Origin: Pseudomonas marvdashtae
Lineage (GTDB): Bacteria > Pseudomonadota > Gammaproteobacteria > Pseudomonadales > Pseudomonadaceae
Direction: 5' to 3'
Length of the DNA stretch: 64,000 nucleotides
Assembly: GCF_014268655.2 (NCBI RefSeq)
Contig: NZ_JABWQX020000001.1
Coordinates: 2,262,001 to 2,326,000 of the forward strand
Within the stretch, counting starts at the first letter, position 1; each line of letters begins with the position of its first letter. The translations under genes were made by a program, and so were the position numbers. This document shows, piece by piece, positions 1-18,505 of the stretch. The notes beneath the pieces were generated by a model, which had not been told where the DNA came from, did not search any database, and worked only from the letters and a program-made list of their open reading frames with translations.

Positions 1-156
1 ACTCGTTCCCTGGAGATTCTCGAATACGTCCTGCACAACGTCCTGCCGGGCCTGGACGCAGAGACGGAGGTGAAGACCCTGGCCCATGAACTGATCAGCG
101 AGGAAATCGACATGCGCCGCAGCCTGGAGCAACAGCGCGCCGAGGTGCAGGCCTGA
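1..156 (+). CDS. C-terminal end of a T3SS gene, possibly SctW/HrpJ gatekeeper (partial)
   Basis: An open frame enters from the left edge and stops at TGA 154-156, which overlaps the ATG of the next gene (ATGA). About 51 residues are visible, acidic and helical, including a VLHNVLPGL stretch and a charged tail. Position just upstream of sctV and the general look of the tail fit the SctW (YopN/HrpJ) gatekeeper family, but so short a piece cannot decide it. SctD, which is absent from the rest of the window, would be the main alternative. That it is a real translated gene is supported by the translational coupling; the family call is inference. Confidence 0.45.
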   Translation, partial: TRSLEILEYVLHNVLPGLDAETEVKTLAHELISEEIDMRRSLEQQRAEVQA

Positions 157-506
157 TGCGCCACGAAATGCTCAGCCGCCAAGAGCAGGACGCCGTCGAG
201 TTGCTCAAGGGCATGGGCGAGCTCTATCGCCGTGGCGGCCAACCGCAAAAAGGCTTGGTGATGCTGCTGATTGCGGTGCATCTGGCACCGCGCGATCCCA
301 TGTTGCTGCGTGGCCTGGCGATGGCCTTCACCGACAGCGCCCAGCCGGCCCGCGCATTAAATGCGTTGGACCGGTTGGTGGCGGCCGAAGGCGAATCGCC
401 GGGCGCGTTGTTGCTACGCAGCCGCGCGTTGTGGGGCGCCGCACGGAAGGAAGAGGCGCGCCAGTGCTTCAAACGTTATCTGATCGCCCGCAGGGCCGCT
501 CGATGA
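156..506 (+). CDS. Small TPR protein of the T3SS (SctG/YscG-like)
   Basis: A 116-residue protein with no signal peptide or membrane segment. It is built of about three helical hairpins with TPR-like spacing (GELYRRGGQPQKGLVML, then RGLAMAFTDSAQPARAL, then SRALWGAARKEEARQCF). T3SS clusters of the Rhc type and others carry such small TPR proteins beside sctV, where they act as cytosolic chaperones or partners of needle subunits (YscG/PscG type). It overlaps the previous stop by one base and sctV by four bases (ATGA 503-506), so it is part of one translationally coupled unit. The fold is visible; the chaperone role is inferred from family and context. Confidence 0.6.
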   Translation: MRHEMLSRQEQDAVELLKGMGELYRRGGQPQKGLVMLLIAVHLAPRDPMLLRGLAMAFTDSAQPARALNALDRLVAAEGESPGALLLRSRALWGAARKEEARQCFKRYLIARRAAR

Positions 507-2647
507 TGCGGGTCATGAACCACCTGAATGCCCTGGCACGCGTCGCCGCCACGCGCAGCGACGTGGTCATTGTTGCGTTCATGCTGATGGCCATCGTGAT
601 GATGATCATCCCGCTGCCCACTTGGCTGGTCGACGCGCTGATCGGCATGAACATTGCGCTGAGCATCCTGATCCTGATCGTCGCGTTTTATATTTCGCAC
701 TCGGTGGAGTTCTCCGCGCTGCCACCGCTGATCCTGCTCAGCACGCTGTTTCGCCTGTCCTTGTCAATCACCACCACGCGTTTGATTCTGCTGGATGGCA
801 ACGCCGGTCACATCGTCAAGGCCTTCGGCGATTTTGTCATCGCAGGCCAGGTTGTGGTGGGCCTGGTGGTGTTCTTGATCATCACGGTGGCGCAGTTCGT
901 GGTGATCACCAAAGGCGCCGAGCGCGTCGCCGAGGTCGCGGCGCGCTTTACCCTGGACGCGATGCCGGGCAAGCAAATGAGCATCGATAACGACCTGCGT
1001 AACGGCGACATCGATCAGCCCGAGGCCCGTCGCCGTCGCTCGCGACTTGAGCGCGAAAGCCAGATGTTCGGCGCCATGGACGGCGCAATGAAATTCGTCA
1101 AAGGCGATGCGATCGCCGGGCTGGTGATTCTTTCGGTCAATCTGCTGGGTGGCATGCTGATTGGCATGCTCGAGCGGGATATGTCATTCGGCGACGCGGC
1201 GCATACCTACTCGCTGCTGACGGTGGGCGACGGGCTGATCGCGCAGATTCCGGCGTTGTTGATTTCAGTGGCGGCGGGGACGGTGGTCACCCGCGTCAAC
1301 AGCGACAACGCCAGCGGAAACCTCGGCACGGAAATTCTGCAGCAACTGGGCGCCAGTCACATGGCGCTGGGGTTGACGGCGTTGATCCTGCTGGGCGTTG
1401 CGCTGCTGCCAGGTTTCCCGGCGCTGGTTTTCATTGGCCTGGCAGCGGTGCTTGGAGGCGCGGCATTCGTCATGTACCGCCGTGGCCGGGTGGTCGAGGT
1501 GCTTGCCGTTGAAGCTGTCAGCGAAGCGGCTGACGATCAAGCACCCGTGCCCGAACCATCCCAGCTGCTTGGCAAGCCGCTGGACAGCCGGCTGTTGCTC
1601 AGCATGGGCTCGGCGTTGGGCCAGGCGGCGCCGGAGCTGCCGCTGCGCCAGCGACTTGAAGCCTTGTGTCATGACATTCGCGCTGACCTGGGAATCGAAG
1701 TGCCCGTGCCCGACCTGTATATCGATCCGTCGATGGCGGCCAACCGCTTTGTCATTGAGCTGGAGGGCGTGCCGGTCAGCGAAGGCGACTTGCCCCCCGA
1801 TTGCTTGTTGCTCAAGGACGATCCGGTGCATGCGCACTTGCTCGACATTGCGCTGCTGGAGCACGATTCGCCCCTCAGCCAGCGGCCGGCGCATTGGCTA
1901 GAACGGCATCATCAGGACAGCCTGCAAGAGGCCGGCATCGGTTTCATGCTGCCTGACGAGGTGCTGCGCGCCATGGTCGAGCGCACGGTGCGCCGTTACG
2001 CAGCGGATTTTCTCGGGATCCAGGAGACCCGAGCGATCCTCGAGCGCATGGAAGGCCTCTACAGCGAGTTAGTCAAGGAAGTGCTGCGCATCGTGCCGTT
2101 GCAACGCATCGCCGAGGCCCTGCGCTTGCTGATCGCTGAAGGTGTCTCGATCCGCAATCAACGCGCATTGCTCGAGGCAATGGTCGAATGGGGCGCGCGG
2201 CAAACCGATGCACCGGGTCTGGCCGAACAACTGCGCGCCGCACTGGCCCGCCAGATCAGCCACCAGTTCGCCGACCGCAACCGGGTCATCAGCGCCTTCG
2301 TGCTCACCCCGGGCCTGGAAGAACAATTGCGCACGAGCACGCGGCGTCTGGAGAACCCTGGCGATTCATTGCCCGAACACACCAACCGCGCGCTGCTGAC
2401 GCAAATGCGTCACGCCTGTGAGCGCTTGCCTGAGGAAGGCCAGACGGTATTGCTGGTGCATCCCGAATTGCGGCGTGGCATGCGTCGCCTGGTGGTGCGC
2501 GGCGAGCTGGAACTGGCGGTCCTGTCGTTTCGCGAGCTGGCCGGCGAGTACAACCTGCAAGCACTCGGCACCATCAGCCTGAACGAAATCACTCATCGAC
2601 GCCCAGCCAGCGGCGTCCCGATTACTCAGATGGCGAGCGCCTCATGA
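503..2647 (+). CDS. sctV: T3SS export-gate protein SctV (HrcV/RhcV, FlhA family)
   Basis: This is the 714-residue major export-gate subunit of the inner-membrane export apparatus. The N-terminal half has about eight membrane helices and the FlhA/LcrD family block around LSTLFRLSLSITTTRLILL. It continues through the conserved cytoplasmic loop (FTLDAMPGKQMSIDNDLRNG). The C-terminal third is the soluble domain that forms the nonameric ring and docks chaperone-substrate complexes. The ATG at 503 was preferred over an upstream in-frame start at 431 because it makes the ATGA overlap with the TPR gene and places the first helix normally. It overlaps the secretin gene downstream by four bases. Confidence 0.93.
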   Translation: MMRVMNHLNALARVAATRSDVVIVAFMLMAIVMMIIPLPTWLVDALIGMNIALSILILIVAFYISHSVEFSALPPLILLSTLFRLSLSITTTRLILLDGNAGHIVKAFGDFVIAGQVVVGLVVFLIITVAQFVVITKGAERVAEVAARFTLDAMPGKQMSIDNDLRNGDIDQPEARRRRSRLERESQMFGAMDGAMKFVKGDAIAGLVILSVNLLGGMLIGMLERDMSFGDAAHTYSLLTVGDGLIAQIPALLISVAAGTVVTRVNSDNASGNLGTEILQQLGASHMALGLTALILLGVALLPGFPALVFIGLAAVLGGAAFVMYRRGRVVEVLAVEAVSEAADDQAPVPEPSQLLGKPLDSRLLLSMGSALGQAAPELPLRQRLEALCHDIRADLGIEVPVPDLYIDPSMAANRFVIELEGVPVSEGDLPPDCLLLKDDPVHAHLLDIALLEHDSPLSQRPAHWLERHHQDSLQEAGIGFMLPDEVLRAMVERTVRRYAADFLGIQETRAILERMEGLYSELVKEVLRIVPLQRIAEALRLLIAEGVSIRNQRALLEAMVEWGARQTDAPGLAEQLRAALARQISHQFADRNRVISAFVLTPGLEEQLRTSTRRLENPGDSLPEHTNRALLTQMRHACERLPEEGQTVLLVHPELRRGMRRLVVRGELELAVLSFRELAGEYNLQALGTISLNEITHRRPASGVPITQMASAS

Positions 2648-3963
2648 CGTGTTTTGTGCAGTTTCGTGGCTTCTGGATAGCCGCCGTTGCAGCGTTGGCG
2701 CTGCCCGTGATCGCCTGTGCGCAGACCATCGCCGAAGGCAGTACCGGCAACCTTGACCTGGCGTCCGGCGAAGGGCGCATCTTGAGCTTCACGGCACCGG
2801 TTGACTCGGTGCTCGTCGCAGACCCCGGTATTGCCGATTTGCAGGTGGTGTCACCCGGGTTGATTTACGTGTTTGGCAAAGCCCCCGGGCAGACCAGCCT
2901 GATCGCCCTAAGCCCTGATGGCGAGCAACTGGCGGCGTTGAGCCTGTCCGTCAGCAGCGGTACCCAGGCCATCAGTCGCCCGCTAAAGGCGCTGCATCCA
3001 GGCAGCAGCGCGCAGATATCGGCAATCGGTAATCGAGTCGTGGCCAAAGGCAGCGTCAAGAGTGTGGGCGAGGCCACCGACTTGAACGCGCTGCTGAGTA
3101 CCGAAGGCCAGGATTTCAAGAGCGCAATCAACGGTGCGTCATACGAGGGCTCGGCGCAGGTCAACATCCGCGTGCGGTTTGCCGAGGTGTCGCGCTCCGA
3201 ACTGCTGCGCTACGGCGTCAACTGGAACGCATTGTTCAACAACGGCACGTTCTCATTCGGCCTGCTCACGGGCGGCGCGTTGGCGGCAGAGGCGGCCAGT
3301 GGTGGCTCCAACGTGATCAGCGCCGGGCTGACGTCGGGCAATGTGAATATCGACGCGATGCTTGAGGCGCTGCAAAGCAACGGCATCCTCGAGATCCTTG
3401 CCGAGCCGAACATCACGGCCATGACCGGCCAGACCGCGAGTTTCCTTGCCGGGGGTGAAGTCGCCGTGCCGGTGCCGGTAAACCGCGATCTGGTCGGCAT
3501 CGAATACAAGCAATACGGCGTGTCGCTGCTGTTCAGCCCGACGGTCCTGCCCAACGACCGAATCGCCCTGCAGGTGCGTCCTGAAGTGAGCAGTCTGATG
3601 GCCTCCAGTACGGTCAGCGTGGGCGGTTATCAAGTGCCGTCGTTCAGGGTGCGGCGTGCCGATACGCGGGTTGAGGTCGGCAGCGGCCAGACCTTCGCGA
3701 TCGCCGGGCTGTTCCAGCGCGAAAGCAGCCAGGACGTAGAGAAAGTACCAATGCTTGGCGACATGCCGATCCTCGGCAATCTGTTTCGCTCCAAGCGCTT
3801 TCAGCGCAATGAAACCGAACTGGTGATTCTGATCACGCCGTATCTGGTACAGCCGGTACGTGCGCGAACCCTTGCCACGCCACTCGACGCTCGACCTGCG
3901 GACACCACCACGGCATCGGCGGGGCCGCGCAACGGCGGGATGTTCGGCTTCTACATGAATTGA
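2644..3963 (+). CDS. Tad-type secretin forming the T3SS outer-membrane ring (RhcC2, CpaC/RcpA-like)
   Basis: A 439-residue protein with a Sec signal peptide (cleavage probably after VIACA). The N-terminal domain (about residues 33-105) has the pilus-formation pattern of CpaC/RcpA, with SFTAPVDSVLVADPGIADLQ and YVFGKAPGQTSL. The C-terminal half is a secretin pore domain (EILAEPNITAMTGQTASFL, then SGQTFAIAGLFQRESS, VPMLGDMPILGNLFRS and ELVILITPYLV). There is no SctC-type N0-N1 region in it; that part is encoded separately at 5354-5959. Split secretins of this kind are known from the rhizobial T3SS (RhcC1/RhcC2) and the second P. syringae T3SS. The gene is coupled to sctV and followed after 13 bp by a CpaD-like lipoprotein. 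Confidence 0.88.
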   Translation: MTCFVQFRGFWIAAVAALALPVIACAQTIAEGSTGNLDLASGEGRILSFTAPVDSVLVADPGIADLQVVSPGLIYVFGKAPGQTSLIALSPDGEQLAALSLSVSSGTQAISRPLKALHPGSSAQISAIGNRVVAKGSVKSVGEATDLNALLSTEGQDFKSAINGASYEGSAQVNIRVRFAEVSRSELLRYGVNWNALFNNGTFSFGLLTGGALAAEAASGGSNVISAGLTSGNVNIDAMLEALQSNGILEILAEPNITAMTGQTASFLAGGEVAVPVPVNRDLVGIEYKQYGVSLLFSPTVLPNDRIALQVRPEVSSLMASSTVSVGGYQVPSFRVRRADTRVEVGSGQTFAIAGLFQRESSQDVEKVPMLGDMPILGNLFRSKRFQRNETELVILITPYLVQPVRARTLATPLDARPADTTTASAGPRNGGMFGFYMN

Positions 3964-3976
3964 ACAGGGAGCAACC

Positions 3977-4384
3977 ATGAATCGTGTACTGCTGCTGATT
4001 GGCCTGGCGCTGACGCTGCTGGCGGGTTGCAAGACCCAGCTGACACCCGCGAGCTACTCGCCGGATTACCAGGCGCTGACCCGCGCCGACGGCCGGGTCG
4101 AACTGGTGCCGGTGGAATGCTTGAAGCCTTCGGTCGAGGATCAGTTGGGCGACGATGAAGAAACGCACGTGCCGTTATTGCCACCCGGCTGCGCCAACAA
4201 CCTTACGCTTTTGCAGATGGTCGAGCAGCGTTCGGATTTGTTCCAGGGCAGGGCGACCGGTCCGACCATGGCCGCGCCAGTGGGGCGCGCGGCGCAGGTC
4301 TACATTGATGGTTATGACCGCGAGGAGCTGCGCCGGCGCCAATCCGAGCAGCAGGCAAGGGCCGACAAGCAGGAGCGCCAATGA
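3977..4384 (+). CDS. CpaD-like lipoprotein accompanying the T3SS secretin
   Basis: A 135-residue lipoprotein with a clean lipobox (LLAGC, Cys at about 18) after a hydrophobic segment. Its middle shows the pattern of the Tad-pilus lipoprotein CpaD/RcpB: a Gly-Cys-Ala start of the conserved block (PPGCANNLTLLQMVEQ), then a D-L-x-x-GR-x-x-GP segment and a YxxGY-like end. The tail is charged and probably helical. An AGGGAG ribosome site lies 8 bases upstream of the ATG. CpaD proteins act with the Tad secretin at the outer membrane, so here it probably helps assemble or stabilise the neighbouring Tad-type T3SS secretin. The family call rests on motif recognition without a profile search. Confidence 0.65.
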   Translation: MNRVLLLIGLALTLLAGCKTQLTPASYSPDYQALTRADGRVELVPVECLKPSVEDQLGDDEETHVPLLPPGCANNLTLLQMVEQRSDLFQGRATGPTMAAPVGRAAQVYIDGYDREELRRRQSEQQARADKQERQ

Positions 4385-4395
4385 CTGTCCTTGCC

Positions 4396-5178
4396 CTAGT
4401 GAGTATCGACCAGCCCCAATTCGCGCGCCTGGGCTTGCGGGTCTTCCATGGCCTTGATGCGTCGCGCTTCAGCCAACAGCTTCTCGCGTTGCGCGTTGGA
4501 AATGTCGTCAAGGCCCAGGGTGCGGATGTCCTGTTCGCGGCCGGCGAGCACGCTGATCAACAGCGCGTTGCGTTGGTGACGGGGCAGGGCCCGTGCGGAC
4601 TCGACGACGGTATGGATAGTGTCCAGCGCCCGTTGCGATTTGCCCCCCAGGGCGTAGGCCAGGGCGAGGTTGCAACGGGTGTCGAGGTCGTTGGGCGCGA
4701 TCGTGAGGCTTTGGTTGAACGCCGCCTGGGCCGCGTCGGGTCGACCCCGCAGAATCTGCGCGATGCCCAGCCGGTTGAACGCTTCGGGTTGATCGGGTTG
4801 CGCACTGGCCTGGGTCAGCACCGTCACCGCGCGGTCCAGCTTACCTTGGCGCAGTTGTGCGCTGCCCAGGCCCAGCAAGGCGGCTGCGCTGTCCGGTTGG
4901 CGTTCCAGCGCTTGTTGATAGGCGCGCTCGGCGCCTCGTGCGTCACCGTTGGCCAATCGTGTTTCGCCCAGTTTGAGCCAGGCCTCGAGTTGCGCCTGCG
5001 GCAGCTGCGTGGCCTTTTCATAAAGCCCGGCGGCGGTCACGGTGTCGCCGCGTTGTTGCAGGTCGGCTGCCAGGCCCATGAAGCGTTCGTAACTGCCGTC
5101 GGAGGCGGGCGGGGTGCTGCAGGATACGAGCGTGACGCTGCCAAGCAAGATCAACGTGGGGGCGAAGCGACTGGGCAT
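4396..5178 (-). CDS. TPR lipoprotein, TadD-like, inverted inside the T3SS cluster
   Basis: A 260-residue lipoprotein: signal peptide with lipobox LVSC (Cys about 20), Ser at +2, then about five TPR hairpins (for example AAGLYEKATQLPQAQLEAWLKLG and AERAYQQALERQPDSAAALLGLG). Tad-pilus loci encode such a lipoprotein (TadD) that works as a pilotin-like factor for the RcpA secretin. Next to the CpaC-like secretin and CpaD-like protein this role is plausible, but TPR lipoproteins are common and the call is contextual. It is transcribed against the rest of the cluster, converging on the CpaD-like gene (11 bp apart) and diverging from the secretin N-part gene, so it needs its own promoter. Confidence 0.62.
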   Translation of the reverse strand: MPSRFAPTLILLGSVTLVSCSTPPASDGSYERFMGLAADLQQRGDTVTAAGLYEKATQLPQAQLEAWLKLGETRLANGDARGAERAYQQALERQPDSAAALLGLGSAQLRQGKLDRAVTVLTQASAQPDQPEAFNRLGIAQILRGRPDAAQAAFNQSLTIAPNDLDTRCNLALAYALGGKSQRALDTIHTVVESARALPRHQRNALLISVLAGREQDIRTLGLDDISNAQREKLLAEARRIKAMEDPQAQARELGLVDTH

Positions 5179-5353
5179 GGGAAAGACTCTTGGGTCGAGG
5201 ACAGCGGGGCAATTGCTCGATCAGCTGCGGGGGCCGGTCAACCGAAACGGCTCACCCGACGCGAGCCTCATTTTATCGAGTTGAAGCGCAATAGCGAACG
5301 TTATGTGCGCGGTGTTTCCCGTTCCACCGTCGGCACCCGTGGGGGACGCCGTC
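5179..5353. promoter_or_regulatory. Divergent intergenic region between the TadD-like gene and the main T3SS operon
   Basis: The start of the long plus-strand operon (secretin N-part to sctU) and of the inverted TPR lipoprotein gene both face this 175-bp gap, so at least two promoters are expected. A short inverted repeat GGCTC-N9-GAGCC occupies 5249-5267, followed by an AT-rich patch at 5268-5287. No convincing hrp box (GGAACC-N16-CCAC) and no clear rhizobial tts box was seen, which argues against control by an HrpL-type sigma factor here. Confidence 0.45.
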
Positions 5354-5959
5354 ATGGGTAATCCTTCATTCAAAAAATGGTTTTTCTCGGCACTGATGAC
5401 GGTTCTGGCCTCGACCGGCATACGCGCCGCAGACGCGCCGGCCGGCGATGCGCCGCAGTGGTTCGCCGAGCCGTATGCCTACGTGCTGGTCGAGCAGGAT
5501 GTGCGCGCCGCACTCGAAGAGTTCGGCCACAACCTGGGGCTGGTCGTGGTCATGTCGGACAAGGTTCGTGGCAAGTCTCGCAGCAAGGTTCGCGGCGAGT
5601 CGGCGGGGGATTTCCTGACGCAGCTGTGCAACGTCAACAGCCTGAGCTGGTACTTCGACGGCAACATTCTGTACCTGAGCGCCGATGCGGAAAACGCCAC
5701 GCGCCTGTTCAAGGCTCAGGGGCACGACCTTGAGCAGCTTGAAGATTACCTGGGCAGCCTGGACGTCTACGGCAAGCAGCTTTCGTCCCGTGCGGGCCCC
5801 GATGGCGATGAGCTGTTCGTCTCGGGACCGCCGGCGTACCTGGGCATGGTCCAGCAGCATGTCGACCACCAGCAACGCCCCGTCACTGCGCCCGTCGCGC
5901 GTGAGCGCGGTGTGCGCGTATTTCGTGGGGGCGTGGTGACCCTTGAAGCCAGCCACTGA
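5354..5959 (+). CDS. sctC1: SctC N-terminal half, N0/N1-type secretin protein (RhcC1)
   Basis: A 201-residue exported protein. The chosen start (ATG 5354, after a GGGGGA ribosome site) gives a signal peptide ending near IRAADA. After it comes the T3SS secretin N0 pattern (residues about 40-100: EQDVRAALEEFGHNLGL, VVMSDKVRG, a block ending LSWYFDGNILYL) and then an N1-like domain. It stops before any N3 or pore domain, so it cannot form an outer-membrane channel alone. This is the RhcC1 half of the split secretin; RhcC2 is at 2644-3963. An upstream in-frame start at 5303 would destroy the signal peptide. The gene heads the long operon that ends with sctU. Confidence 0.82.
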   Translation: MGNPSFKKWFFSALMTVLASTGIRAADAPAGDAPQWFAEPYAYVLVEQDVRAALEEFGHNLGLVVVMSDKVRGKSRSKVRGESAGDFLTQLCNVNSLSWYFDGNILYLSADAENATRLFKAQGHDLEQLEDYLGSLDVYGKQLSSRAGPDGDELFVSGPPAYLGMVQQHVDHQQRPVTAPVARERGVRVFRGGVVTLEASH

Positions 5960-6684: not shown

Positions 6685-7467
6685 ATGTCCAACCGCTGTC
6701 GTGCCTTGCGTTTGACGATCGTCGTTGCCTTTGCTGGATTGTTGCAGGCCTGCGATATCGACCTGTACACCAACCTGGACGAGCGCGAGGCCAATGCCAT
6801 GGTCGCCGTCCTGCTGCGCGACGGCGTTCCGGCCTCGCGCAAAGTACAGGACAACGGCCAACTGACGGTGGTGGTGGACGAAAAACGTTTCGCCCAAGCC
6901 ATGGCGTTGCTCGATGAAGCAGGTTTACCGGGCCAGTCGTTTTCCAACCTGGGCCAGGTCTTCAAGAGTAACGGCCTGGTGTCATCGCCGGTCCAGGAGC
7001 GGGCGCAAATGGTCTACGCCTTGAGCGAAGAACTGTCCCACAGCGTGTCGGAAATCGACGGCATCATCTCTTCTCGGGTGCACGTCGTGCTGCCGGACAA
7101 CGACTTGCTCAAGCGCGTGATATCGCCTTCCTCGGCATCTGTGCTGGTGCGCTACGACCCGGCCACCGATATCAATCAATTGATCCCGCAGATCAAGACG
7201 CTGGTCGCCAACGGGATTTCCGGCCTGAGCTACGAAGGCGTTTCGGTGACGGCCATCAAGGCTGCTGTCGCAGGCCAACGCAGCGGTGCCCAGCCGCGCC
7301 TGGCGAGCTTTCTGGGCATGTGGATGCTGGAAGACAATCTGCCCCGGGCGCGGCTGATCTTCGGTTTCCTGCTGCTCTGCACTCTGGGGCTTGCCGGCGT
7401 TATCGGTTGGCAGCATTGGCAGCGGCGCGGTGCCCAGTCGGTGTACGTGCTGGAAGACGCGCAATGA
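6685..7467 (+). CDS. sctJ: T3SS inner-membrane ring lipoprotein SctJ (HrcJ/RhcJ, PrgK family)
   Basis: A 260-residue lipoprotein with lipobox LQAC (Cys about 23). Two ring-building motif domains follow, with typical YscJ sequences (DLYTNLDEREANAMVAVLL, FSNLGQVFKSNGLVSSPVQE, and SSRVHVVLPDN). A C-terminal transmembrane helix lies around residues 224-243 before a short cytoplasmic tail. It forms the outer of the two concentric inner-membrane rings. It overlaps sctK by four bases (ATGA 7464-7467). Confidence 0.93.
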   Translation: MSNRCRALRLTIVVAFAGLLQACDIDLYTNLDEREANAMVAVLLRDGVPASRKVQDNGQLTVVVDEKRFAQAMALLDEAGLPGQSFSNLGQVFKSNGLVSSPVQERAQMVYALSEELSHSVSEIDGIISSRVHVVLPDNDLLKRVISPSSASVLVRYDPATDINQLIPQIKTLVANGISGLSYEGVSVTAIKAAVAGQRSGAQPRLASFLGMWMLEDNLPRARLIFGFLLLCTLGLAGVIGWQHWQRRGAQSVYVLEDAQ

Positions 7468-14365: not shown

Positions 14366-17137
14366 TCAACTGGCGTTGCAGACGCGCGTCTTCAAACGGT
14401 CAAGGTCAGCCGCAATACGCGTCGACCAGAAATGCGCACCCTGGTTGTCAGCCTCGTTCCACGCATCCTGAAGCACGCGATGTGACAGCGGGTTGCCTTG
14501 CTTGAGCAGAAGCTGCGCCTTGATGCGCAACAGTTCCGGAACAAACCAGCGCTCCTCGCGGCTTCGAACGGTTTGCAGGGTTTCATCGACAATCTCCAGG
14601 CTGCGGTGCTCCAGCCCGAGCATGGCCAACCCCAAGGCGTATTCGCTGCGAAACAGGCTATACAGGGGGCTGCCACCCTGGTCCTGCAACTGCTCAAGGA
14701 CTTCGCCCAGGCCCGGTACGCCGTCTTCCGCAGCGCCCTGGCGGATGAGCAGTATGTGCTCGAAACACCGGCTGAACTGGCGCCACAAATAAAGATCATG
14801 AGCTTCCAAGCTGTCTTGCAGCACCGACAGGTAGTAACGCGCCTTTCGCTCATTCCCCACCAATAAAGCAGTCGGAATCGCGCCAATGCACAACGTGTAC
14901 CACAGCGTGGCTGGATGATTGAGGCTGATGGCCTGGCTCACGCTTTTTTCCAGTGTCGAGAGCGCCGCCGCGACATCCCCTTGCAACAAATGGATCTTCG
15001 CCTTCAGCGACCGCGCGGCGATACGTTGGTCGAAATGCAGGTCGATCAAGTGGGTGTTCGCCGAAAGCGGGGCGCTCAGGGCTTCGACCACCGAGCGTCG
15101 TGCATCTTCCAACCGACCCATGTGGAACTGCGCATTGGCACGCATGCGCAGGCCGAGCAACTGGCGGTCGCTGTGGGCCGCGCCTTGACTTGACGCCACA
15201 TACTGATCGGCCAGCTCAAGTGCGGCAATGTACTGATTCGCGCAGCTTCTATCGTGCCACAGGCCCCACAGCGCACGCAGTTGATGCTCGGTGTCATTGA
15301 GCATCAGCGCGTCTTCGCTGACTTGCTGCCATGCGTTGCGGATCTTTGCACCGCCACCAAAGGTAAGCATCATGACGCTGGCCGAGGCGGTCAGTAACAG
15401 CATGCGTTGGCGTTGCTGGATGGGCGCACTGTCGTAGATGGGCTGCAGGCCTCGGTTGACCCAGTCGTAGTATTCAGCGCTGAGTGAAAGGCGCAACCAG
15501 AGCGGCAGGCTGGCCAGCGTCAGCTCCACCGCCAATCCGTAGTCGCCTCGCGATGAATACGCCCAGTCGAGCGCAGCGCGAACGCTGTCGACTTGTGTCC
15601 CATACCGAGCGAGCCAGGCTTGCGGGGGGGTTGTGACGAGGCCTTGTACGGACGCTTTCAACTCATCCAGCGTCCAGTTTGCGTGACGCCGCGCAGTGGT
15701 GTCGGTTGCGCCCTGCGCCGCGAGTTTCTCTGCGGCATAGAGGCGGGTGGTTTCCAGCAGCCGGTAGCGTCTGGCCGAGCCTTGCCCGCAGGAGGTCACC
15801 AGCGACTTGTCCACCAAGTTTTCCATCAGTTGCGCCGGGTCCTGGTTGTCGACGGCAATCACGGCCTCCACCGCGCGCAAGGTGAACACGCCGGTGAACA
15901 CCGATAGTTGACGAAGCATGGCTTGTTCAGCGGCGCAGAGCATCGCGTGGGTCCAGTCCAGGGCGGCCCCCAGGGTGCGATGCCTCGGGAGCGCGGTACG
16001 CTGACCGGTCATTTGCAAGCGAAAGCTGCCGTCGAGCATCTTCACCAGCGGCTCGATGCCGAACGCTCGTACTCGTGCGGCGGCGATCTCGATAGCCAGT
16101 GCATTGCCGTCGAGTTTGCGGCAGATGGCGGCAACGGCAGGGACATCCTGATGCGTGAAAACGTAACCCAGATCGTGCGCTGCGATGCGTTCCACCAGCA
16201 ACGCGATGGCGGGGTAGGCCAGCGCTTGCACCGTGTCCAGGCGGGCCTCCGGCGTTGGAAACGGCAGGGGGGCCAGGTCATGCACGAACTCGCCTTCGGC
16301 GTGCAGCGGCTCGCGGCTCGTGACCAGCACCGAGCATTGCCGGGCACTGCGCAGGATCGTTTCGATGGACTTGGCGATTTCTTCGAGGACGTGCTCGCAG
16401 TTGTCCAGAATGAGCAATGCCTTGCTGGTGGCGAGGCTACTGGCGATGACCATTGATGGGTCGTCGGCCGTGCAGTCGATTCCCAAGGCTGCGGCGATGA
16501 CGAGGTGCACCGACTGACCGCGACTGACTGGGGCGAGATCGATAAAACTGACGCCTTGCGGATATCGGTGCCGCATCCGGTTCGCCAAGGCCAGCGCAAC
16601 CGTGGTTTTGCCAATGCCTGCAGGGCCGGTGACGGTCACGAAGCGACGCTGCTCAAGCTGTTTTTCCAGCGTGTCCAGCAGTTCTTCCCTGCCGAATATC
16701 CGCTTTATTGTGCCTTGAAGTTCAGCGTTTTCAGCCTCGTCGGGCGGCCTGGTGGAGTTCGATGGCGCGGTTATCGGCGCGGCGAAACGATAGCCGCGAC
16801 CCGGGACGGTGGCGATGTAGCCGAGGTCGCCATTGGCGCCGAAGGTGCGACGTAACGTCAGGATCTGCGCCCGCAGATTACATTCCTCGACCACCACCCT
16901 GGGCCAGACGAGAGTGAGCAATTGGGCTTTCTCCATCAGCTCACCGGCACGCGTGGCCATGGCGATCAACAGGAGCATTGCGCGGCTGCCAAGAGGGACG
17001 GGTTCGCCGTTTCTCAAGAGCAAATGATGCTGTGGGATCAGAACGTACGCGCCGAAACAGATCGCGTTGTCCGGTACAGGGATGTTCGGCCTGCTATCGC
17101 AAAGAGTTCTTTCCGGGCTGGGGCTGTCGAGATTCAT
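14366..17137 (-). CDS. Winged-helix transcriptional regulator with NB-ARC-type ATPase and TPR-like tail (STAND family)
   Basis: A 923-residue regulator. The N-terminus (about 25-120) is an OmpR-type winged helix (ELMEKAQLLTLVWP, NLRAQILTLRRTFG, TVPGRGYRF). It is followed by an NB-ARC/STAND ATPase with Walker A GPAGIGKTT (about 171-179) and a Walker B region (KALLILDNCEHVLEEI). The remaining 450 residues are helical repeats, probably ligand sensing. ATG 17137 is preferred to an upstream GTG at 17170 because an AGG site sits seven bases before it. It converges on sctU with a four-base gap and shares the 17138-17494 region with cheB. Whether it controls the T3SS cannot be read from the sequence. 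Confidence 0.82.
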   Translation of the reverse strand: MNLDSPSPERTLCDSRPNIPVPDNAICFGAYVLIPQHHLLLRNGEPVPLGSRAMLLLIAMATRAGELMEKAQLLTLVWPRVVVEECNLRAQILTLRRTFGANGDLGYIATVPGRGYRFAAPITAPSNSTRPPDEAENAELQGTIKRIFGREELLDTLEKQLEQRRFVTVTGPAGIGKTTVALALANRMRHRYPQGVSFIDLAPVSRGQSVHLVIAAALGIDCTADDPSMVIASSLATSKALLILDNCEHVLEEIAKSIETILRSARQCSVLVTSREPLHAEGEFVHDLAPLPFPTPEARLDTVQALAYPAIALLVERIAAHDLGYVFTHQDVPAVAAICRKLDGNALAIEIAAARVRAFGIEPLVKMLDGSFRLQMTGQRTALPRHRTLGAALDWTHAMLCAAEQAMLRQLSVFTGVFTLRAVEAVIAVDNQDPAQLMENLVDKSLVTSCGQGSARRYRLLETTRLYAAEKLAAQGATDTTARRHANWTLDELKASVQGLVTTPPQAWLARYGTQVDSVRAALDWAYSSRGDYGLAVELTLASLPLWLRLSLSAEYYDWVNRGLQPIYDSAPIQQRQRMLLLTASASVMMLTFGGGAKIRNAWQQVSEDALMLNDTEHQLRALWGLWHDRSCANQYIAALELADQYVASSQGAAHSDRQLLGLRMRANAQFHMGRLEDARRSVVEALSAPLSANTHLIDLHFDQRIAARSLKAKIHLLQGDVAAALSTLEKSVSQAISLNHPATLWYTLCIGAIPTALLVGNERKARYYLSVLQDSLEAHDLYLWRQFSRCFEHILLIRQGAAEDGVPGLGEVLEQLQDQGGSPLYSLFRSEYALGLAMLGLEHRSLEIVDETLQTVRSREERWFVPELLRIKAQLLLKQGNPLSHRVLQDAWNEADNQGAHFWSTRIAADLDRLKTRVCNAS

Positions 17138-17494
17138 CGTATACCTATCAGACTGACGTCTTACCAGCACATCGTGAATGCGCCTTTTCCATGTTCAGTA
17201 GGTAACTGGCAGCATCCGAGAGAATCATTACTGTTTTAGTATCGGCTGAAACATTGGCCGTTGTGGGCGTTCCCGAAATCCCGGATCTCAACACCTTGGA
17301 AATTGACGGTGAGATTTTCCGAACCTTCGGGTGCTCAAACGTATCAGAAGAGACAGGACAGGCGCTGAATGTAATCCCAGGGACACGTGAGTCGCAGGAA
17401 GCACTCCCCAGGAAGATCTCCCCAGGAAAATTCCAGAATAAGCCGCGGTTTGAAACCGTGAACATGCGACCGGGTCGCTAGTCAGGAAGTATTT
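17138..17494. promoter_or_regulatory. Divergent intergenic region with a tandem repeat and a palindrome
   Basis: A 357-bp gap with no convincing gene, less GC-rich than its surroundings. It holds an exact 11-bp direct repeat CTCCCCAGGAA at 17404-17414 and 17418-17428 (14-bp period). It also holds the palindrome CGGTTT-G-AAACCG at 17446-17458, centred 43 bp before the cheB ATG. Promoters for the regulator (minus) and cheB (plus) must lie here. The palindrome could be an operator for cheB. Confidence 0.5.
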
Positions 17495-18505
17495 ATGGCG
17501 CAACAAAGCCGTACTGACAAAATCATCGTAATTGGCGCTTCCAGCGGTGGACTCGCGGCGTTACGCGAACTGCTCGCCCATCTTCCGAGCGACTTGCGCG
17601 CTGCGATCTTCATTACGATGCACATAGGCGATCGACAAAGTCTGTTGCCACGCCTTCTGGCGCAGGTAAGTGCCATGGACATTGATTTTGCGATGTCCGA
17701 GGAAGAAATAAAGAGCGGTCGTATTTACGTCGCGCCACCGGACAGGCATCTGCTGATCAAACGGGGAACGTTGCAGTTGGCCCGCAGCGCCAAGGAAAAC
17801 CATTCCCGCCCGGCGATTGATCCGATGTTTCGATCCGCTGCCATCAGCTACGGGAATAGGACAATCGGTGTCGTGCTGACCGGTGAGCTCGATGACGGTG
17901 TCGTCGGCCTTCAGGCGATCAAGGCATACGGTGGCATGGCATTCGTTCAAGATCCGCAGACGGCCGAAGCCCCCTCCATGCCGATGAATACGCTTCGGCA
18001 TGTTGAGGTGGACGGATGCTTGCCGCTCGATGAACTGGGAAAGACCTTGGGGCAGACCATCCAGCAGTGGGGAACCGAAGCTGACTCGCCTTGGCAGCCG
18101 AGACGTATCGAGCCTTTTGCCACGGAAAACGACCTCACTGAGGATCTGAGTTCTGGCGGCGCCCATGCCTTGGAGGCGGTAGGTGAGAAGGCTGGGATGT
18201 CGTGCCCTGAATGCGGAGGCGCGCTGTGGGAGCTGGGGTCCACACCGCTGCGTTTCCGTTGCCACACCGGCCATAGCTATACCTATACCGTTTTGTCTAA
18301 AGCCCAGAATGAAACAGTGGAAGAAGCGCTCTGGGTCGCGATTCGAGCGCTGCATGAAAAGCAGTTGCTGTTGGGCCGACTGATCCAAAACAGTAAGGAC
18401 TCCGGACGAAACGCCGCCGTCCAGGAGTATGAACTGACCAGCGAAGGGCTCGAGAGCCATAAGGCGACGCTTCGAGCATTGCTGGCGAAGCTACGCCCCG
18501 TTTGA
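17495..18505 (+). CDS. Stand-alone CheB-type protein-glutamate methylesterase with a C-terminal zinc-ribbon-like domain
   Basis: A 336-residue cytosolic protein. The CheB esterase domain starts at residue 10 with no response-regulator domain. Catalytic Ser16 (GASSGG), His43 and Asp134 (TGELDDG) are all present. After about residue 200 comes a segment with CPEC and RCHTGH (about 236-262) that looks like a small metal-binding knuckle, then a helical C-terminus. No CheR, receptor or CheA gene is nearby, so the substrate is unknown. The absence of a receiver domain means activity is not controlled by CheA in the usual way. It has a good ribosome site (AGGAAG) and converges on the TctA-like gene 17 bp downstream. 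Confidence 0.85.
   Translation: MAQQSRTDKIIVIGASSGGLAALRELLAHLPSDLRAAIFITMHIGDRQSLLPRLLAQVSAMDIDFAMSEEEIKSGRIYVAPPDRHLLIKRGTLQLARSAKENHSRPAIDPMFRSAAISYGNRTIGVVLTGELDDGVVGLQAIKAYGGMAFVQDPQTAEAPSMPMNTLRHVEVDGCLPLDELGKTLGQTIQQWGTEADSPWQPRRIEPFATENDLTEDLSSGGAHALEAVGEKAGMSCPECGGALWELGSTPLRFRCHTGHSYTYTVLSKAQNETVEEALWVAIRALHEKQLLLGRLIQNSKDSGRNAAVQEYELTSEGLESHKATLRALLAKLRPV

Follow-up and report, generated by a model that had tools for sequence, protein, structure and literature searches.

The window analysed here is a 64-kb stretch (G000 contig 1, 2262001–2326000) of the 5.9-Mb genome of Pseudomonas marvdashtae, and approximately its first 14 kb read as a type III secretion system (T3SS) cluster. 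Our subject is the outer-membrane part of that system, a secretin followed by two lipoprotein genes resembling components of the Tad pilus, here called the mini-CpaD and the TadD-like lipoprotein. T3SS genes tested with models in the window were those for a SctY-like protein, SctV, the secretin, the CpaD-like protein, an inverted tetratricopeptide repeat (TPR) protein, RhcC1, SctJ, SctL, and SctN. The features used below are the following.

156–506, plus strand: SctY-like TPR chaperone, context (NF052415, 69.3 bits against a cut-off of 70).
503–2647, plus strand: SctV export gate, context (TIGR01399, above cut-off); overlaps the secretin start by 4 nt.
2644–3963, plus strand: RhcC2-type secretin of the Tad RcpA/CpaC subfamily (Pfam, match to 8odn, rooted tree).
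2749–2955, plus strand: N-terminal pilus-type domain of the secretin, T2SS-T3SS_pil_N, residues 36–104 (E = 3.9e-19).
3977–4384, plus strand: mini-CpaD lipoprotein, 135 aa, lipobox LAGC with Cys18 (profile matches, alignment, dN/dS).
4115–4300, plus strand: CpaD C-terminal block, residues 47–108, with GCANN, DLFQGR, and GP (Pfam and alignment A4).
4396–5178, minus strand: TadD-like TPR lipoprotein, 260 aa, convergent with the CpaD-like gene (TadD-model scores, lipobox).
5354–5959, plus strand: RhcC1, the N-terminal part of a T3SS secretin (SctC), divergent from the TPR gene (N-terminal part of TIGR02516, E = 2.6e-22, below the whole-protein cut-off).
6685–7467, plus strand: SctJ inner-ring lipoprotein, context (TIGR02544, above cut-off).

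The secretin and CpaD-like genes are separated by 13 nt, and the CpaD-like and TadD-like genes converge at a distance of 11 nt. The TadD-like gene and rhcC1 diverge from a single 175-nt stretch (5179–5353), so their control may be shared. The split RhcC1/RhcC2 layout, the inverted TPR gene between the two, the SctY–SctV linkage, and a HrpK-like translocator nearby (an HrpK1 domain, E = 2.7e-27, in a 1133-aa open reading frame (ORF) upstream of the window) place the cluster in Rhc subgroup II.

Besides its pilus-type N-terminal domain, the secretin carries a Pfam Secretin domain (E = 3.5e-45). By sequence, its nearest solved chain was RcpA (8odn, E = 2e-56), and none of the 20 solved-structure matches at E ≤ 1e-5 bore a T3SS name, 8jvb having a general type II/III one. 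The closest named secretin was that of Pseudomonas fildesensis with 97% identity, and the three other secretins of the same genome were distant (best 80.8 bits). Both the sequence and a tree position inside the Tad secretins disclosed membership in the RcpA/CpaC subfamily, in agreement with a preliminary description of this DNA that had read the gene as a CpaC/RcpA-type secretin. A Tad origin of rhizobial RhcC2 is given in the text of Abby and Rocha 2012 (PMC3459982).

The preliminary description had also placed a CpaD signature block behind the secretin, and its motifs were located at 4187–4201 (GCANN), 4235–4252 (DLFQGR), and 4259–4264 (GP). The Pfam profile Pilus_CpaD (PF09476), the sole Pfam match of this protein besides a weak lipoprotein-signal model, aligned residues 47–108 with profile positions 139–197 of 200 (E = 5.7e-4, 20.1 bits), leaving the N-terminal two thirds of the profile uncovered. 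The same profile matched 76 of the 80 subgroup II proteins in alignment A4 at E ≤ 0.01; A4 represents 80 of 92 subgroup II loci, the 12 with unsure start codons (L005, L178, and 10 of the 80 genome loci described below) having been excluded. The orthologue from a Klebsiella plasmid scored above the Pfam cut-off (33.3 bits) and below that of NCBIfam (28.0 bits).

Comparison of alignments with hhalign related the subgroup II proteins to 14 Tad CpaDs with E = 3e-13, in a match spanning 68 C-terminal columns, and to the subgroup I CpaDs with E = 1e-4, while Tad and subgroup I CpaDs matched each other over 183 columns (E = 9e-24). Subgroup II thus has a lipobox and the C-terminal third of CpaD but not the remainder. 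The distance from the lipid-bearing Cys to the GC motif had a median of 53 residues in subgroup II (n = 81) and 125.5 in subgroup I (n = 10), and was 129–137 residues in the three of five Tad CpaDs in which the lipobox pattern matched. A few Tad loci likewise match the C-terminal part of CpaD alone (L180, with a 115-codon frame). Cys18 (lipid), Cys48, and Cys72 were invariant in all 80 rows of A4, and a Cys pair matching Cys48/Cys72 was invariant also in the 14 Tad CpaDs and the 10 aligned subgroup I proteins. The window protein thus has the conserved C-terminal block with the GC motif and the Cys pair, and adjoins an RcpA/CpaC-type secretin.

In order to survey other loci, we used a CpaD model built from five Tad-locus CpaDs only, two of them nearly identical, on 29,414 stop-to-stop ORFs from 143 loci; the genome loci fetched by secretin were the best 80 of 266 relatives. 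At E ≤ 0.01, the ORF adjoining the secretin was matched in 78 of these 80 loci (73 at E ≤ 0.001), in all 12 subgroup I loci, and in all 11 further subgroup II loci, one of them the window. At this threshold, none of the 29,414 ORFs that lay away from a secretin was matched. The two weakest loci were L051 and L052. Four of the subgroup I loci (L110, L168, L169, L170) showed no T3SS marker in their stretch and were assigned by secretin and CpaD alone; the scores of L168 and L169 were identical. A chance motif as the source of the CpaD likeness was ruled out by the Pfam matches across A4, the hhalign value against Tad CpaDs, and the secretin-adjacent model matches. Judged on its sequence, we regard the window protein as a CpaD homologue, and not as a family member by cut-off.

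The protein encoded at 4396–5178 has the lipobox LVSC, and a lipobox was found in 83 of 86 subgroup II TPR proteins. No TadD model was among the library matches listed for it; a TadD model built here from six TadDs of Tad loci, chosen by annotation or locus place, gave 78.3 bits (E = 9e-22), in line with the inverted TadD-type lipoprotein of the preliminary description. Of the 80 genome loci, 76 gave a TPR gene with this model; in the other four, the locus ends 82–507 nt past the CpaD-like gene. The TPR frame started approximately 300–960 nt from the secretin in these 76 loci and lay on the opposite strand in 70 of them. Co-occurrence in related T3SS loci, to which the preliminary description had also looked, was therefore high for both genes.

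Controls were first taken from 17 TPR matches of the same genome, among which were the window protein itself and repeated matches inside a single ORF. Because the genome's own PilF (G000:C2:481806-482504) was not among them, 19 PilF proteins were fetched and the test was repeated. With the TadD model, the T3SS TPR proteins reached a median of 83.0 bits (52.1–100.0, n = 86) and the PilF proteins 46.2 (16.3–56.4), while 22 further Tad-locus proteins, picked by the same model, scored 72–192. A reverse model of 18 T3SS TPR proteins gave a median of 65.0 (22.7–111.1) for 28 TadDs, a set made of the six chosen by annotation or place and the 22 picked by the TadD model and hence not independent of that model, against 42.1 (19.1–51.5) for the 19 PilF proteins and at most 36.6 for the own-genome control TPRs. 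The highest PilF score was exceeded by 22 of the 28 TadDs, including five of the six that had not been model-picked (65–99). A PilF model showed no preference for the T3SS proteins (median 30.0; TadD 30.4). These comparisons suggest that the window TPR lipoprotein lies nearer to TadD than to the TPR groups it was compared with, PilF and the own-genome TPRs.

Across six Pseudomonas relatives, the ratio of non-synonymous to synonymous substitution rates (dN/dS) was 0.07–0.13 for the secretin, 0.11–0.20 for the CpaD-like gene, and 0.14–0.29 for the TPR gene, indicating that all three are kept under purifying selection. Taken as a whole, these findings are best explained by a Tad-pilus outer-membrane module grafted onto a T3SS base to form the outer ring, which we consider probable from the sequence relationships.

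Several results weigh against this reading. The window CpaD-like protein scored under both curated cut-offs (20.1 of 31.1 bits in Pfam, 13.1 of 94.45 in NCBIfam TIGR02522), so that the profile search proposed in the preliminary description gave the match but not a family assignment, and the mini-CpaD had no PDB fold match at E ≤ 0.001. The TPR families are hard to tell apart: with the TadD model, the T3SS range, which goes down to 52.1, overlaps that of PilF, which goes up to 56.4, and a long TPR protein of the same genome reached 62.9 bits, while the T3SS TPR model gave the annotated TadD of L107 just 22.7. For the block that follows the TPRs, a separate model had the T3SS TPR protein as its best match in 81 of 86 loci, at E < 0.01 in just 41 of 86, and gave the window protein 17.2 bits and a control 16.4. 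Finally, the Klebsiella plasmid locus L003 showed no TPR gene in the 21-kb stretch examined.

The results on the TPR protein bear on an alternative in which the secretin and CpaD came from Tad, whereas a PilF/PilW-type or general TPR lipoprotein, merely TadD-like, was recruited as the pilotin. This would agree with the overlapping score tails, the indecisive post-TPR block, and the gene's strand opposite to the secretin, as well as with the fact that most of the 28 TadDs were picked by the TadD model itself. The predicted fold (pLDDT 89.4) matched PilW (2vq2, TMt 0.79) and PilF (2fi7, TMt 0.73), along with MamA and designed and eukaryotic TPR proteins, and no TadD structure was among the 50 fold matches listed. 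Nevertheless, the reverse model separated most TadDs from every PilF, and the PilF model lacked any preference. A quick tree set the TadDs between the T3SS TPRs and PilF, with no starred branch forcing this placement and with L107 as a long branch beside PilF. We therefore consider recruitment from outside Tad unlikely, and a TadD relationship remains the preferred reading of the TPR lipoprotein.

Two further parts of the Tad machinery were not found at the T3SS loci. CpaB/RcpC was detected in 38 of 39 Tad loci compared to none of 80 T3SS loci, and CpaF likewise in none of the 80; the rest of those genomes was not searched. In the first 20 kb of the window, there was no CpaF, CpaB, CpaE, or TadB. 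The genome of P. marvdashtae itself had no CpaF at E ≤ 1e-30 (best match 42.9 bits over approximately 150 residues); the possibility that the window genes belong to a tad locus of their own genome, a caveat raised in the preliminary description, was ruled out on this basis. The same description had proposed that the whole assembly set of the secretin was taken over. None of the outcomes that it listed as refuting was obtained, with the caveats that the CpaD match of the window protein by itself falls under the Pfam cut-off and that the TadD match comes from a model built here. The present data support three Tad-related parts forming a conserved set; the word whole does not hold, as CpaB/RcpC was not found in the 80 T3SS loci, CpaD is cut down, and the subgroup I stretches show no linked TadD.

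Because of their homology to Tad parts, the TPR lipoprotein is likely a pilotin and the mini-CpaD a lipid-anchored partner of the secretin; for the former, the likeness of its predicted fold to the pilotins PilW and PilF, among other TPR proteins, points the same way. In the Tad system, as reported by Clock in 2008, RcpA is said to have failed both to multimerise and to reach the outer membrane when TadD was absent, and RcpB levels reportedly depended on RcpA. TadD is described as essential for assembly of the Tad secretin in Denise 2019 (PMC6668835), citing Clock 2008. By analogy with the action of TadD on the Tad secretin, the TadD-like lipoprotein would carry the secretin to the outer membrane and allow its multimerisation. 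The lipid-anchored mini-CpaD would sit on the secretin via its conserved C-terminal part and stabilise the ring, and its Cys pair may form a disulfide. RhcC1, the N-terminal piece kept from an ordinary T3SS secretin, could stand in for CpaB/RcpC and connect the foreign ring with the inner rings of SctD/SctJ; as a link of the ring to SctD, it was proposed in the text of Abby and Rocha 2012 (PMC3459982). In short, we infer from sequence that ring assembly follows the Tad route. A secretin lacking its sorting and stabilising factors is of little use, and a swap of the T3SS channel for a pilus channel is easier to understand if those factors came along. A SctD-like protein encoded just left of the window (L231:8856-9800) has a C-terminal Y4YQ_C domain overlapping a below-cut-off match to type II secretion protein B (E = 6e-4); it could be the contact to the foreign secretin ring.

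In a different view, the two lipoproteins are passengers or have another job, such as signalling, chaperoning, or contact with peptidoglycan, and assembly of the secretin proceeds by itself or together with RhcC1. The locus of Klebsiella plasmid L003 fits this view, as does the cluster of P. syringae pv. oryzae 1_6, which has no TPR gene according to the text of Gazi 2012 (PMC3574062). The near-constant adjacency of the genes in the loci, the lipoboxes in both lipoproteins, and their dN/dS of 0.11–0.29 speak against it, and we find it unlikely compared with a role for both lipoproteins in ring assembly.

Two plasmid loci carry related genes. Locus L003 (NZ_CP035384.1 22008–43171) is a subgroup II-type T3SS core with RhcC2 and mini-CpaD on a Klebsiella pneumoniae plasmid typed conjugative, with a transposase gene 1.3 kb past the mini-CpaD; two more Klebsiella plasmids matched similarly. 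On a Sinorhizobium meliloti plasmid (L105:9938-12192), a Tad-type secretin is accompanied by a 101-aa ORF and a TPR gene (TadD model, E = 5.7e-10), and the 21 kb around showed no Tad or T3SS markers; this is possibly another stand-alone outer-membrane cassette.

To evaluate the history of subgroups I and II, we built secretin trees after identity thinning, which left 17 subgroup II, 11 subgroup I, and 49 Tad secretins. The approximately unbiased (AU) test used 75 rows and the quick tree, L106 and L107 being excluded for their long branches; for the careful tree (53 rows) and the rooted tree, 16 more Tad secretins and three from each T3SS subgroup were excluded. In the careful tree, subgroup I (100/100) had two Azospirillaceae Tad secretins as its sister group (98/95), while subgroup II (100/100) was located elsewhere. 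T3SS secretins formed a single block in 0% of 200 bootstraps. When rooted with the three other secretins of the P. marvdashtae genome, whose branches were very long, both subgroups remained inside Tad and apart (96/93, 92/93). The AU test gave moderate evidence against one T3SS clade (p = 0.021), and the CpaD tree, in spite of a weak backbone, agreed with the split.

A single recruitment, as in Abby and Rocha 2012 (PMC3459982), would imply one capture of a Tad module by the ancestor of the Rhc T3SSs followed by fast divergence, with subgroup I losing TadD, subgroup II losing the N-terminal part of CpaD, and the two clades being a tree artefact. The split RhcC1/RhcC2 layout common to both subgroups (as set out in the text of Gazi 2012, PMC3574062) is easier with one event, and the long subgroup II stem (0.77–0.89) and the weak CpaD backbone are compatible with it. 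On the other hand, every tree result above keeps the subgroups apart, also once the outgroup was added, and the subgroup II CpaD is closer to Tad CpaD (E = 3e-13) than to that of subgroup I (E = 1e-4). One capture appears somewhat unlikely to us, and we favour two captures, or an initial capture later replaced by another.

CpaF was also surveyed in ten genomes. A full CpaF (479–499 bits) was present elsewhere in five of five genomes with a subgroup I secretin–CpaD pair (G035, G122, G137, G174, G223), although T3SS genes were seen in the stretch for G137 and G174 only. Among the subgroup II genomes G000, G050, G244, G254, and G170, only the last had a full CpaF (480 bits), the others having 139 bits or none. 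No linked TadD was found in the 12 subgroup I loci within the stretches examined. The pattern in these ten genomes fits subgroup I borrowing TadD in trans and subgroup II carrying its own. We put forward, tentatively and at something just short of an even chance, that the secretin and CpaD of Tad, either together with TadD or lacking it, make up a portable outer-membrane cassette captured at least twice by Rhc-type T3SSs. Subgroup II would then represent a minimal self-sufficient kit of secretin, CpaD C-terminal part, and TadD pilotin, working without a genomic Tad pilus, whereas subgroup I came without TadD and may borrow that of a host tad locus. These observations are hints that pilus outer-membrane modules are reusable as a set.

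Regarding annotation, the preliminary description had taken a CpaD-like part in a T3SS to be undescribed. This fails for subgroup I, whose CpaD link is already in public annotation: RefSeq names the gene after RhcC2 as CpaD family in NGR234, Bradyrhizobium barranii, Mesorhizobium huakuii 583, and R. etli Mim1, while it is hypothetical in M. huakuii 7653R and unlisted in Bosea vestrisii. The NGR234 CpaD passes TIGR02522 (195.2 bits) and Pfam; that of B. barranii is above the Pfam cut-off (61.3 bits) and below that of NCBIfam (86.3). The subgroup II records examined carry the names hypothetical protein and tetratricopeptide repeat protein. In the main text of Gazi 2012 (PMC3574062), the words Tad, CpaD, and lipoprotein do not occur, and y4xK appears once each in the text of Gazi 2012 and of Tampakaki 2014 (PMC3973906), as an rhcC2 neighbour or putative lipoprotein, with neither Tad nor CpaD occurring. 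Relative to public records, what looks new is the unannotated pair of mini-CpaD and TadD-like lipoprotein and the trees parting subgroups I and II inside Tad. The 2008 work of Clock reportedly had rcpA-like genes always linked to rcpB- or cpaD-like genes, and may have included rhizobial genes already.

If the proposed origin is true, two unnamed or generically named genes of Pseudomonas and rhizobial T3SSs gain a testable job, and the essential part of CpaD may narrow to approximately 60 residues. The single-recruitment scenario in the text of Abby and Rocha 2012 (PMC3459982) would need revision if the captures were two and separate.

Other genes lie at the edge of the cluster. A large regulator at 14366–17170 (minus strand) has a PhoB-type DNA-binding domain, a STAND/AAA ATPase, and weak TPR matches, and resembles PSPPH_2539 in the text of Gazi 2012 (PMC3574062). 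A CheB methylesterase-type protein with a C-terminal extension is encoded beside the cluster at 17495–18505. In other loci, an L,D-transpeptidase gene lies beside three Rhizobiales subgroup II T3SS clusters and beside cpaF in a Rhizobium Tad locus, at the following positions.

L007:15550-16218: L,D-transpeptidase gene.
L008:15543-16205: L,D-transpeptidase gene.
L012:15781-16332: L,D-transpeptidase gene.
L109:15543-16115: L,D-transpeptidase gene.

Compared with known systems, the three outer-membrane parts are homologous to those of the Tad pilus (CpaC–CpaD–TadD or RcpA–RcpB–TadD). They differ in that the T3SS loci are without CpaF and CpaB (0/80 each, for the loci only) and that the window-type CpaD is approximately 70–85 residues shorter between the lipid and the GC motif. 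The PilF/PilW pilotins of type IVa pili are also TPR lipoproteins and similar in fold to the window protein, but their sequence scores fall mostly below those of TadD, with overlapping tails. Rhc subgroup I (NGR234 pNGR234a, y4xK) shares with the window a Tad-type secretin directly followed by a CpaD lipoprotein; unlike the window's, this CpaD is full-length (200 of 200 Pfam positions in NGR234), it has no linked TadD (0/12 loci, in the stretches examined), and its secretin comes from a different part of the Tad tree. The window is a further member of Rhc subgroup II, represented by P. syringae T3SS-2 and NGR234 pNGR234b, whose gene layout in the text of Gazi 2012 (PMC3574062) is the same as in the window; for two P. 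syringae strains, that text gives a TPR gene facing the other way as the sole separator in the neighbourhood of the two secretin genes.

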